Positions 7,868 to 30,512 of a DNA stretch of 39,946 nt are shown here, one piece after another (within the stretch, counting starts at the first letter, position 1; every line of letters begins with the position of its first letter). A model generated the notes under the pieces. The model saw nothing but the letters and a program-made list of their open reading frames with translations, made no database searches and had not been told where the DNA came from. The stretch comes from Acidimicrobiaceae bacterium (GTDB lineage: Bacteria; Actinomycetota; Acidimicrobiia; Acidimicrobiales; Palsa-688), in assembly GCA_003156595.1 (NCBI GenBank), contig PMHH01000148.1, positions 2,710 to 42,655 of the forward strand, in the 5' to 3' direction. A program made the position numbers and the translations under genes.

Positions 7868-7890
7868 GGGCGGCGGCCGGCGGCCGGCGC

Positions 7891-8028
7891 CCGATCCGGC
7901 ACCGATTGGGACAGACCTCGCGTCGCCGGTCCCGGCTCGTACGGAGGTCTGTCCGTGTCGAAGCCCGATCCGGCGCCCATTGGGACAGACCTCGCGTCGC
8001 TGGTCGGGGCGCGCCACGAGGTCTGTCC
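7891..8028. repeat. Tandem duplication (period 74 bp) of a hairpin unit with 11-bp perfect arms GGACAGACCTC/GAGGTCTGTCC
   Basis: Arms at 7909-7919/7944-7954 and 7983-7993/8018-8028; flanking CCGATCCGGC also duplicated at 74-bp spacing. Confidence 0.92.
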
Positions 8029-8120
8029 GTATGCGAGGTTGGAACATACCGTCGGCGCGGTCGGTCCTCGACGCCTGAGCCAGACGCAGACAGCCCCGGC
8101 TCTGCCATGATCGGGCGCCC

Positions 8121-16768: not shown

Positions 16769-16855
16769 GTGCCGCCGGGCGTTGAAGAGGCTGGGCCGGA
16801 CGGATGCGCCCGGCCGCGGGCGGCGGCGACTGATGAGAACCCGACGGCCGGGTGA

Positions 16856-16911
16856 GCTCACAGGTGTTCGCTTATCTGCCCGATCGGGGGGATAAGCGAA
16901 CACCTGTGAGC
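16856..16911. repeat. Long perfect inverted repeat, 21-bp arms GCTCACAGGTGTTCGCTTATC, 14-nt loop
   Basis: Arms 16856-16876 and 16891-16911 are exact reverse complements; loop contains palindrome CCCGATCGGG. Confidence 0.95.
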
Positions 16912-16993
16912 CCAGGTTGTCTTGCGGCGGGCGCTAAAGGAGGTTCGGGCGGGCCGGATGCGCCAGACCGCCGGCCCGCCTACAGTCCTAGCC

Positions 16994-17848
16994 ATGCCGA
17001 TCAACCCTGATGCCGCCGGGAGCACCAGCGAGCCGCGCCAAGCCTCGTGGGACTCCAAGGACTGCCTGCTCTACGCTCTCGGCGTCGGCGCAGGCGTGAG
17101 CGATCCCACCGGTTTCGAGCTCGAGTTCACCACCGAGAACAGTCAGGACGTGACCCAGAAGGTCCTGCCGACCTTCCCGGTCGTGATACAGGGAGGAGGC
17201 GGAGCCTTCGGCAAGGTCGGCAGCTTCAACCTGGCGATGCTGGTCCACGGCGAACAGTCCGTCGAGTTGCACGCGTCACTGCCGGTCAACGGCACGGTGG
17301 AGTCCGTGACCACCATCACCGGCATCTACGACAAGGGGTCGGGCGCCGTGATCGCCACCAGCACCGTCGCCACCGACCAGCAAAGCGGCAAGGCGCTGTG
17401 GACCACTACCAGCTCCGCGTTCGTCCGGGGCGAGGGCGGCTGGGGCGGCGACCGCGGGCCGTCGGGCACGGTGCAGTTCCCCGAACGCGGCCCCGATCAC
17501 ACCGTCAGCTACGCCACCCGCCCCGATCAGGCCCTTCTCTATCGGTTGTCGGGGGACCGCAACCCCCTGCACTCCGATCCCCAATTTGCCGCGATGGGCG
17601 GCTTCGACCGGCCGATCCTGCATGGGCTGTGCAGCTTCGGCTTCACCGGGCGAGCCCTGCTGCACACCTTGTGCGAGTCGAACCCGGACCGGTTCGTGTC
17701 GATGGCCGCGCGCTTCTCCAAGCCGGTTTTCCCCGGCGAGGAGCTGACCATTTCGATATGGGTGACCGACGAGGGCTCCGCCCTCTTCCGCTCCTCCACC
17801 CCGGCGGGAGTGGTCATCGACGCGGGACGCTTTAGCTACCAGGGCTAG
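16994..17848 (+). CDS. MaoC-type (R)-specific enoyl-CoA hydratase, MFE-2-like double hotdog
   Basis: SWDSKDCLLYALGVGAG; TRPDQALLYRLSGDRNPLHSDPQFAAMGGFDRPILHGLCSFGFTGRALL. Confidence 0.9.
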   Translation: MPINPDAAGSTSEPRQASWDSKDCLLYALGVGAGVSDPTGFELEFTTENSQDVTQKVLPTFPVVIQGGGGAFGKVGSFNLAMLVHGEQSVELHASLPVNGTVESVTTITGIYDKGSGAVIATSTVATDQQSGKALWTTTSSAFVRGEGGWGGDRGPSGTVQFPERGPDHTVSYATRPDQALLYRLSGDRNPLHSDPQFAAMGGFDRPILHGLCSFGFTGRALLHTLCESNPDRFVSMAARFSKPVFPGEELTISIWVTDEGSALFRSSTPAGVVIDAGRFSYQG

Positions 17849-27102: not shown

Positions 27103-27825
27103 GTGGGTCCATCCCCCAACCCGACTGGACGGGTTGTGCTCGTCACTGGGGGCAACCGCGGCATCGGGCTGGCCATCGCCCGGGCCTTCGCTGATGCGGG
27201 GGACCGAGTAGCCGTAACCCACCGGGCTGAGCCGGTCGACGGTTTTCTATCCGTGCGCTGCGACGTGACCTCGGGTGAGCAGGTCGAAGCCGCCTTCAGT
27301 GCAGTCGAGGCGGAGCTCGGGCCGGTCGAGATCCTGGTATCCAATGCCGGGGTCACCGCCGACGGGTTGCTGTTGTCGATGAAGGAGGAAGCCTGGTCGC
27401 GCGTCATCGACGCCAACCTCACCGGCGCCTACCGGGTGGCGCGCCGGGCCACGTCGAAGATGATCCGGGCCCGCCGGGGGCGGATCATCTTTATCTCCTC
27501 GGTGGTGGCGCTCACGGGCTCGCCAGGCCAGACCAACTACGCGGCCTCCAAGGCCGGACTGATCGGCTTCGCCCGATCGCTGGCACGCGAGATCGGCGGC
27601 CGAGGCGTTACCGTCAACGTCGTGACCCCCGGCTTCGTCACTACCGACATGACCGCGGCCTTGTCCGAAGCTCGCCAAGCCGAGATCGTCGAGCAGATCC
27701 CGCTGCGGCGGATGGCCAACCCCGAGGAAGTGGCCGGCGCAGTCACCTGGCTGGCATCGGATGCGGCGAGCTACATCACCGGGGCGGTGATCCCGGTCGA
27801 CGGCGGTCTCGGCATGGGGCACTGA
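27103..27825 (+). CDS. fabG: 3-oxoacyl-ACP reductase
   Basis: VVLVTGGNRGIGLAIARAFADAG, NAGVTADGLLLSM, NYAASKAGLIGFARSLARE. Confidence 0.92.
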   Translation: MGPSPNPTGRVVLVTGGNRGIGLAIARAFADAGDRVAVTHRAEPVDGFLSVRCDVTSGEQVEAAFSAVEAELGPVEILVSNAGVTADGLLLSMKEEAWSRVIDANLTGAYRVARRATSKMIRARRGRIIFISSVVALTGSPGQTNYAASKAGLIGFARSLAREIGGRGVTVNVVTPGFVTTDMTAALSEARQAEIVEQIPLRRMANPEEVAGAVTWLASDAASYITGAVIPVDGGLGMGH

Positions 27826-28253
27826 TGGCGGGCCTGCCCCGGCCCGATGAGGTGCTGCCTCACCGCCCGCCGTTCCTGTTTGTCGACGAGGTGACCGAGA
27901 TGGTGCCGTCGCGCTCCGCGACCGGGCGGTGGCACCTAACCGGCGACGAGGCCTTCTTCGCCGGCCACTTCCCCGGCCGGCCCACCCTGCCGGGCGTGCT
28001 GATGGTCGAGGCCCTGGCCCAGCTCGGAGGGATCGCCCTCCTGTCCGACGAGCGCTACGCCGGCAAGCTGCCCCTCTTCGGAGGGATCGACAAGGCCCGC
28101 TTCCGTCGCCAGGTCAGCCCCGGCGACACCCTCGACCTGTACGTCGAGCTCGACCAGCTCGGATCGAGTGCGGGCAAAGGCCACGGCACAGCGCGCGTCG
28201 GCGACAAGGTGGCATGCGAGGTGAGCATGCTCTACGTGATCGTCAGGCAATAG
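27825..28253 (+). CDS. fabZ: 3-hydroxyacyl-ACP dehydratase
   Basis: [36 protein letters not shown]. Confidence 0.93.
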
Positions 28254-28269: not shown

Positions 28270-28339
28270 GAGGGATCCAGGTCCATCGAGTTGCGGACCC
28301 GGATCAACGAGGTCCGCAACTCGATGGACTGGATCCCTC
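28270..28339. repeat. Long inverted repeat, 29-30 bp arms with one single-base bulge, 11-nt loop, 17 bp after fabZ stop
   Basis: GAGGGATCCAG(G)TCCATCGAGTTGCGGACC (28270-28299) vs GGTCCGCAACTCGATGGACTGGATCCCTC (28311-28339). Confidence 0.95.
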
Positions 28340-28417
28340 CTATCACTCCAAATCGCTGGCTGCCAAACGAACCACAATGCGCTCACCGCGCATATAGATA
28401 TTTGCTTTTATAAGCAG

Positions 28418-28505
28418 GTGGCCAGGGCGACCTAAGGGTAAGGGGGACAGGTGCAGTGGATTGCTGGTGTCGTTCATTCGCACCAGCAATCCACTGCGGC
28501 TGGAC
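28418..28505. repeat. Hairpin repeat copy 1 (16-bp perfect stem 28454-28469/28481-28496 plus conserved flanks)
   Basis: Aligns with 29187-29275; conserved upstream CTA(A/G)GGGT(A/G)AGG..., loop TCGTTCATTCG, downstream TGCGGCTGGACC. Confidence 0.9.
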
Positions 28506-28525
28506 CCGGCGGGTAACCCGCCGGG
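28505..28525. repeat. Short perfect hairpin CCCGGCGGG-TAA-CCCGCCGGG abutting repeat copy 1
   Basis: 9-bp perfect arms and 3-nt loop; terminator-like; not present after copy 2. Confidence 0.85.
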
Positions 28526-28580
28526 CGGTTTCGGCAGCGGATGGCTGGAAATCAGGTCAGGAGTGCCGACGCTGGCCCAG

Positions 28581-28892
28581 TCAGACGGCTAGGGCGATCC
28601 TGAGTGCGGCGTCGACTCGTGACAACTCATCCGCGCTAAGGAAACCAATCGAGGGCCCAAGCCGTTGAGGATCGACGGCCGTCGTCTGTTCGACCAGGAC
28701 GAGGGTCGGCTGACCGCTGAGATCTACCTCGGGACGAAAGACGGCCGGCCTCGCGGAGGTGGAGGTTGGTGCCACGAGCCAGGTCGAGAGGTGGAGGTCG
28801 TCGGATTGGACGACGACACAGAATCGCCTGCCACTCTGTTCACGTCCGCGAGTTGTGCGAGGCGCCTTCAAGGCAAAGACCTCACCACGCAC
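28581..28892 (-). CDS. MazF/PemK family endoribonuclease toxin
   Basis: MRGEVFALKAPRTTRGREQSGRRFCVVVQSDDLHLSTWLVAPTSTSARPAVFRPEV...LVLVEQTTAVDPQRLG. Confidence 0.88.
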   Translation of the reverse strand: MRGEVFALKAPRTTRGREQSGRRFCVVVQSDDLHLSTWLVAPTSTSARPAVFRPEVDLSGQPTLVLVEQTTAVDPQRLGPSIGFLSADELSRVDAALRIALAV

Positions 28893-29115
28893 GAAGCGAT
28901 TCCATGTCGGCGAGCACCCTCGCCATCTCTGCCCGGTCCTCTGGGTCGGCGGTTAGCGCTTCGGACTGGGCCCTAACGACTCGGCGTTGGCGAGCGACCG
29001 CAGCTTCTACCAGTGCCGAACGGATCGCCTCAGAGACCGGGGTGCCATCTGCGGTGAGAGCCTTCAGTGCCCGTTCGGTGTCGCTGTCTGGTCGGAAGGT
29101 GATGACTCGAGCCAT
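28882..29115 (-). CDS. Antitoxin, ribbon-helix-helix type, partner of MazF-like toxin
   Basis: MARVITFRPDSDTERALKALTADGTPVSEAIRSALVEAAV; 11-bp overlap with downstream toxin gene. Confidence 0.82.
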   Translation of the reverse strand: MARVITFRPDSDTERALKALTADGTPVSEAIRSALVEAAVARQRRVVRAQSEALTADPEDRAEMARVLADMESLRAW

Positions 29116-29135
29116 GCCCGTATCCTACCTCCCTT

Positions 29136-29154
29136 GTGTTACTCAGCGTAATAC
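29136..29154. promoter_or_regulatory. Candidate autoregulatory operator of the toxin-antitoxin pair: GTGTTAC-TCAGC-GTAATAC
   Basis: Imperfect dyad (6/7) just upstream of minus-strand TAGGAT box (29127-29122), which is 6 nt from the antitoxin ATG. Confidence 0.5.
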
Positions 29155-29186
29155 CACGAGCCCGGCCGCCCAGGGCTGTCACAAGC

Positions 29187-29275
29187 GTGGCCGCGACGGC
29201 CTAGGGGTGAGGCGGGGCCAGGTGCGTGGGTTGCCGGTGTCGTTCATACGCGCCGGCAACCCACTGCGGCTGGAC
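29187..29275. repeat. Hairpin repeat copy 2 (14-bp stem 29226-29239/29251-29264 with one G-U-type pair, conserved flanks)
   Basis: Aligns with 28418-28505; lies immediately downstream of the minus-strand fabF stop (29283). Confidence 0.9.
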
Positions 29276-29282
29276 CAGCCAA

Positions 29283-30512
29283 CTACGGTCGACGAAAGAT
29301 CAGGGTTGCGTTGTGCCCCCCAAACCCAAAGCTATTGGTCATGACCGAGTCCACTAAGGCAGGGCGGGCTTCGTTCGGCACGTAGTCGAGATCGCACTCG
29401 GGGTCGGGTTCGAGTTGGTTGATAGTGGGCGGGAGCATCTGATGGTTTAGGGCTTGCACGCAGAAGACCGCCTCCAAGGCGCCCGACGCGCCGAGGGTGT
29501 GCCCGGTCATGGACTTGGTCGACGACACCGGGGGGACCTTTTTTCCGAAGACTCGTTTGAGAGCCAGCGTCTCGACCCGGTCGTTGGGCAGCGTCGACGT
29601 GCCGTGGGCGTTGACGTAGCTGATGGCGCCGGGGGCCAAGCCGGCGTCCTCACAGGCGGCCCGCATGGCGCGCACCGCCCCGTCGCCCTCGGGGTGCGGC
29701 TGGGTCATGTGGTAGGCGTCGGAGGTGGCGCCGTAGCCCGCCAGTTCGGCCAGGATCGGCGCCCCCCGGCCGAGCGCCGCCTCCCGCTCCTCCAAGACCA
29801 GGACCGCGGCGCCCTCCCCCATCACGAACCCGTCGCGGCCGGCGTCGAAGGGACGAGACGCGCGCGTGGGATCGTCGTTGCGGGTCGAGAGGGCCTTCAT
29901 GGCGGCAAAACCGGCGATAGCGACGCGGGTGATGGCGGCCTCGCTCCCTCCGCACACCATGGCGTCCACCCGCCCGGCCCGGATGAGATCGAGTCCCTCC
30001 CCGATCGCCTGGGCTGACGCCGAGCACGCGGTGACGGTGCAGGAGCTGTAGCCGCGAATGCCCCATTCCATCGCCACCTGCCCGACGACCATGTTGGGGA
30101 TGAACATCGGCAGGGTGTAGGGACTGACCCAGTCCGGACCCCGATCGTTGAGGAGAGCGGCGCCCTCCTCGAAGGAGTGCAGCCCGCCGATCCCCGTCCC
30201 GAACAACACTCCCACCCGATGCGGATCCGCGGCGACGTCGAGCTTCGAGGACTCGATGGCCTCCGCCGTCGCAACCAGCGCAAACTGAGCGACACGGTCG
30301 AGGTGTTTGGCCCGGCGGCGGCCGAATACAGCCTCGGGATCGAAGCCGACGACCTCGGCCGCGATACGGGCGGCGAACCCGTCGGGATCGAACAGCGTGA
30401 TAGGGCCTACGCCTGAACGGCCCGAGACCACGCCCTCCCAGGTCGACGCCGCCGTCGGGCCGATCGGGCTGATGGCACCGATGCCCGTGACCACCACTCG
30501 GCGAGCAGACAT
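29283..30512 (-). CDS. fabF: 3-oxoacyl-ACP synthase II
   Basis: MSARRVVVTGIGAISPIGPTAAST, VTACSASAQAIGEG catalytic Cys, NAHGTSTLPND, KSMTGHTLGASGALEAVF. The longer upstream ORF extension is spurious. Confidence 0.94.
   Translation of the reverse strand: MSARRVVVTGIGAISPIGPTAASTWEGVVSGRSGVGPITLFDPDGFAARIAAEVVGFDPEAVFGRRRAKHLDRVAQFALVATAEAIESSKLDVAADPHRVGVLFGTGIGGLHSFEEGAALLNDRGPDWVSPYTLPMFIPNMVVGQVAMEWGIRGYSSCTVTACSASAQAIGEGLDLIRAGRVDAMVCGGSEAAITRVAIAGFAAMKALSTRNDDPTRASRPFDAGRDGFVMGEGAAVLVLEEREAALGRGAPILAELAGYGATSDAYHMTQPHPEGDGAVRAMRAACEDAGLAPGAISYVNAHGTSTLPNDRVETLALKRVFGKKVPPVSSTKSMTGHTLGASGALEAVFCVQALNHQMLPPTINQLEPDPECDLDYVPNEARPALVDSVMTNSFGFGGHNATLIFRRP

Follow-up and report, generated by a model that had tools for sequence, protein, structure and literature searches.

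A dispersed family of REP-like hairpins with a one-sided pyrimidine tail at gene ends in an Acidimicrobiaceae genome

The two hairpins that lie on either side of a toxin-antitoxin pair, in the gap between the fabZ and fabF genes of an Acidimicrobiaceae bacterium, belong to a previously unlisted, dispersed family of hairpins with approximately 40 sites in the genome, mostly at the ends of unrelated genes. Both the family and the positions of its members are well documented. Our combined findings suggest, with a probability that we put at roughly 0.6, that these hairpins are a lineage-specific family of dispersed REP-like palindromes with a role as polar elements at the 3' ends of genes.

Three related hairpins in the fabZ-fabF gap

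The window, by which we mean the whole stretch of 39,946 nucleotides analysed here, contains a fabZ-like dehydratase gene (27825..28253, + strand; PF07977, E 1.5e-25) that faces a fabF-like ketoacyl synthase gene (29283..30512, - strand; PF00109, E 1.5e-53). Between them, on the - strand, lie a gene for a 103-aa toxin of the MazF/PemK family (28581..28892; PF02452, E 3.9e-18) and a gene for its 77-aa antitoxin partner (28882..29115), which is probably a ribbon-helix-helix protein. MazF relatives were found in 17 of 60 other genomes, with the antitoxin gene adjacent in 15 of 19 loci. The partner itself had no Pfam match above the cut-off, and a sub-threshold match (E 0.014) was to the aCcr1 family, which we take to be a family of ribbon-helix-helix proteins. 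Membership of the pair in a defence system was considered and rejected, as PADLOC gave no match.

Each of the three family hairpins in this gap lies beyond the stop codon of a different gene. Copy 1 (28442..28508) and copy 2 (29213..29278) are both on the - strand in gene sense, 72 bp beyond the mazF stop and 4 bp beyond the fabF stop, respectively. With the covariance model R1 they score 86.6 and 75.4 bits, their sense loops are CGAATGAACGA and CGTATGAACGA, and each has a pyrimidine-rich tail on the same strand (28424..28441 for copy 1 and 29194..29212 for copy 2). The two copies are direct repeats that flank the toxin-antitoxin pair, with 88% identity over 51 nt at a distance of 770 bp. Both were present where the preliminary description of this DNA, made by reading the sequence, had placed them, and their folds are 5-6 SD below dinucleotide shuffles (z-scores of -6.1 for copy 1 and -5.2 for copy 2). 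Two stem changes that it had reported as compensatory (28460:28490, from A-T to G-C, and 28465:28485, from T-A to C-G) were both correct, as was a third change that leaves a U-G pair.

That reading had missed three features of the locus. First, copy 2 lacks one nucleotide that copy 1 has (GCAGTGG to GC-GTGG), so that its perfect stem falls short of the 17 bp of copy 1. Second, an inverted third member of the family (28272..28338; + strand in gene sense, - in model orientation) lies 18 bp beyond the fabZ stop, with an R1 score of 71.6 bits, the loop CGGATCAACGA and a pyrimidine-rich tail (28339..28356, + strand in gene sense); the sense fold of this hairpin with its tail has an energy of -59 kcal/mol. 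Third, copy 1 has closer relatives on other contigs: in a whole-genome search its best DNA matches were on contigs C107 and C12 (101 and 100 bits), ahead of copy 2 (87 bits). As copy 1 is thus nearer to those copies than to copy 2, the idea that the two arose by a recent duplication in place was rejected.

The 11-nt loop of the window hairpins was also found on unrelated-looking long hairpins elsewhere in the genome. The loop pattern TCGTTCATNCG occurred 16 times, compared with once for the reversed control, and approximately nine of these 16 occurrences cap long stems that differ in sequence. Covariance models were built from ten sites (R1, alignment A3) and from 27 members (R2, alignment A5). 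The search of this and related genomes with such a model, which the preliminary description had proposed, listed 40 sites in the bacterium's own genome (4.1 Mb), four in G001, a genome of a sister genus, and a single weak one in G020, from a third genus, when R2 was used; these family counts refer to an own assembly that is 76.6% complete. Of the 32 genomes of the taxonomic family, R2 at E <= 0.001 matched two, the own genome and G001. Among 60 relatives, R1 matches were confined to the own genome, and a DNA search with copy 1 found no match beyond it. In the genomes of 84,980 species, a stem-loop pattern gave 18 scattered matches (best 29 bits) and no clear family member, and in viral contigs it gave four matches, none at the reporting limit of R1; a copy-1-type pattern gave none there. 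Rfam covariance models had no match in the window at the gathering score, the only sub-threshold matches being to microRNA hairpins. More divergent relatives elsewhere would escape R1 and R2, since both models were built from own-genome members.

Fold, polarity and position of the hairpin family

Family hairpins are approximately 65 nt long. Their apical CGTT/AACG motif is nearly invariant, while the stems vary freely with compensation: conservation reaches 95% in the apical CGTT versus 64% in the stem columns. Among 27 members, 23 of the 26 stem pairs had changes on both sides (145 cells), and the covariation score was 0.534, compared with 0.219 after shuffling and at most 0.157 when slid. 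The earlier proposal that selection acts on the fold, made from two copies, is thus supported far more strongly by 27 members. Covariation alone is no proof of a role as RNA, because processes at the DNA level can also keep the two arms of a palindrome identical.

The hairpins are polar. Downstream of the hairpin, in gene sense, comes a conserved tract of approximately 13 nt with few G residues (consensus CTYYYYCNYTCRC), which is found on one strand only. For the members selected with R1, a model that covers almost none of the tail, at least nine pyrimidines in 12 nt were found in 27 of 28 sense tails versus 6 of 28 sequences on the other side of the hairpin, against a background of 6.8% of random intergenic 12-mers. 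In Streptomyces Term-seq, at least three U in 8 nt is the threshold for U-rich 3' ends (PMC8269248); 13 of the 28 R1-selected tails reached this value, as did 29 of 45 in a second count. No classical U-tract was found, and a terminator scan flagged none of the three window hairpins and matched no hairpin of the family.

Family members also take a consistent position relative to genes, with neighbours called by a simple codon-usage caller without curated annotation. Most hairpins have a gene edge next to their outer side, and among the 31 edges within 45 bp, 27 were stop codons and four were starts. The p-values for this bias (binomial, 3e-5, assuming independent sites) and for the single inverted arrangement seen in all 11 doublets (0.001; spacers of about 60-260 bp) are indicative only, because the sites share ancestry. 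About half of the doublets are in convergent gaps, with one hairpin for each gene stop, and the others are mostly between co-directional genes. Divergent gaps, which account for 19% of intergenic bases, contained only one family site. In the sister genus, members with a called neighbour lie 2-5 bp beyond stop codons (L207 and both members of L208), and the weak G020 member keeps the same rule. Apart from the four start-proximal sites, several members are directed away from any near stop, and the family is present at a minority of genes only.

Other palindromes and repeats were encountered during this analysis. Another family of palindromic repeats (GGACAGACCTCG ... CGAGGTCTGTCC) is present at 7886-8033 of the window and has 38 exact matches in the genome versus none for the reversed control; it often forms hairpin pairs in tandem steps of approximately 74 bp, and on contigs C38, C44 and C107 copies are found close to hairpin doublets or within them. 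At 16853-16914 of the window is a long, near-perfect palindrome, CTCACAGGTGTTCGCTTATC, with 31-nt arms that are 90% complementary, unlike the family studied here. Elsewhere, a long hairpin of different sequence (TGATGAGAAGTGGGCC...GGTCCACTTCTCATCA) was found just beyond the stop of a convergent partner gene (L172, approximately 1297-1340), and a palindrome of ACTTGGGTGCGGTTG repeats was found inside a doublet between genes that, from reading, we named NUDIX-like and sortase-like (L019, 10021-10109). Related palindromes with TCTCGGCGTC[AG]GATC.TG arms on two different contigs (L009, 15240-15297, and L017, 1-46) may represent a third repeat family or the end of an element.

Possible roles and the history of the locus

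The probable function of the gene-end hairpins is to mark the ends of mRNAs or to protect them. Transcription past the stop codon would place the long hairpin, which is rich in GC, and the C/U-rich tail in the RNA. We infer that together they may stop RNA polymerase as a weak intrinsic or I-shaped terminator, possibly with assistance from Rho at the C-rich tail, which could act as a weak U-tract or as a site favoured by Rho. In addition or instead, the hairpin may block 3' exonucleases. One hairpin per gene at many convergent pairs would produce the inverted doublets. Applied to the window, this would assign copy 1 to the toxin-antitoxin operon, copy 2 to fabF and the third member to fabZ. The loop would be conserved because a protein, or RNA polymerase itself, makes contact with it. 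Among the options raised in the preliminary description, structured terminators or ncRNA-like elements are thus the one that our findings favour.

The hairpins are not required at the orthologous gene ends of G001, since they are absent there: the fabZ-fabF gap and three more hairpin regions with G001 orthologues, which were all of the checkable sites, were hairpin-free in that genome (4/4). Short tandem repeats fill two of the hairpin-free convergent gaps in G001 (AACCTGAGCCGGCC at L195, approximately 17269-17400, and TTGGCGCATCTGACC at L206, 15978-16045).

This absence from orthologous sites also fits the strongest competing explanation, namely that the hairpins are selfish, miniature mobile DNA of the REP/REPIN/BIME type, targeted by a transposase that acts on single-stranded DNA and tolerated after stop codons and between convergent genes, with no host function. 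Such an origin is in keeping with the near-identical copies that form subfamilies across unrelated loci, the lineage-specific expansion, the inverted doublets, and the preference for convergent and co-directional gaps that is known from REPs. However, no match to a Y1 (RAYT) transposase (PF01797) was found in the own genome or in G001, and mobilisation by RAYT/IS200 was rejected on this basis; a Y1 gene may have been missed, as these assemblies are incomplete (about 77% and 82% complete, respectively). Furthermore, the foot of the hairpin is variable and has no dominant GTAG/CGTC tag (GTAG was present in about 1 of 28 listed tails, in model orientation), and neither the one-sided pyrimidine tail nor the 27:4 bias for stop codons is obviously predicted by neutral insertion. 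We regard purely selfish DNA as clearly the less probable explanation. A selfish, REP-like origin is nonetheless compatible with the gene-end role and would explain its lineage-specific spread. Dispersed palindromes of this kind, which share a fixed loop and a polar tail, lie past stop codons and have expanded in one lineage, show how a repeat family can supply ready-made gene-end signals.

A more specific possibility, which we consider unlikely, is that the hairpins are a novel 3'-end RNA element whose apical motif is read by a dedicated factor, with the stem free to vary, the loop and the C/U tail fixed, and the element spread in one lineage. Were a factor indeed to read the loop, the family would be a rare case of a terminator-like element that is recognised via its loop. 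Less probable again is a regulatory RNA or sRNA-binding site, with a loop that binds a protein or a small RNA for post-transcriptional control of a set of genes. The conserved loop on freely varying stems would suit this function, as would the members located just upstream of start codons (L184, L180 and L175), yet the neighbouring genes are varied, and neither a candidate binding protein nor an Rfam family at the gathering score was found.

The preliminary description had also likened the locus to a hairpin-bounded cassette, or a MITE, that carries the toxin-antitoxin pair. In most relatives in which both genes were found, fabZ and fabF converge at a short distance, with spacings of 9 bp (G001), 18 bp (G018 and G004) and 40 bp (G012), and an overlap of 20 bp (G010). 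Some gaps were longer, such as the one of 634 bp in G006 (L125), where the R2 search was negative. The 9-bp gap of G001 contains neither the toxin-antitoxin pair nor a hairpin, and no family hairpin was found in 11 fabZ-fabF loci or at the 19 related MazF loci of other genomes. Since neither the pair nor any of the three hairpins was present in this gap in the relatives checked, both look like late arrivals; nothing ties them into one unit. Moreover, the partners of a doublet differ in their stems (28272/28442 in the window, 9843/10170 on C12, and L208 in G001); they are therefore not terminal inverted repeats, and the idea that a doublet is a MITE whose terminal repeats match was rejected.

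The idea that copies 1 and 2 bound a unit that brought the pair into the gap is very improbable. It is favoured by their arrangement as direct repeats on either side of the pair and by the joint absence of pair and hairpins in the relatives checked. Against it, none of the approximately 40 family sites, mostly at unrelated gene ends, was seen around comparable cargo, related pairs occur without hairpins, the proposed unit does not include the third member, copy 1 resembles hairpins of other contigs more than it does copy 2, and all three window hairpins follow the family in placement and orientation. Repeats on both sides of a toxin-antitoxin pair do not alone make a cassette.

Comparison with known repeats and terminators

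Published REPs are found mainly downstream of genes, in convergent and co-directional spaces, often as inverted dimers and with complementary changes in their stems (PMC3733652). The hairpins described here resemble these GTAG-/CGTC-tagged REP/BIME elements in being multi-copy intergenic palindromes with a preference for certain gaps, inverted dimers and compensating stems. They differ in their longer hairpin, in a CGTT/AACG apex that hardly varies and in a conserved one-sided pyrimidine tail. Because of these differences in length, apical motif and polar tail, and because neither a dominant GTAG/CGTC tag nor a RAYT was found, we call them REP-like rather than REPs.

In their gene-end anatomy, a GC-rich sense hairpin near the stop codon followed by a C/U tail, the hairpins are similar to actinobacterial intrinsic or I-shaped terminators and to the protected 3' ends found by Term-seq in Streptomyces, where the U-rich threshold is one that part of the family reaches (PMC8269248). 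Unlike the Streptomyces terminators, which are independent hairpins that have only a general shape in common, the members of this family are homologous, dispersed and capped by a fixed apical motif. A covariance-model family of terminators at gene ends has reportedly been described in another actinobacterium, as the TRIT model of Mycobacterium tuberculosis in the RNIE paper (cited in PMC3526491). The present hairpins are like TRIT, by description rather than by sequence, in being a gene-end family of an actinobacterium that is captured by a covariance model.
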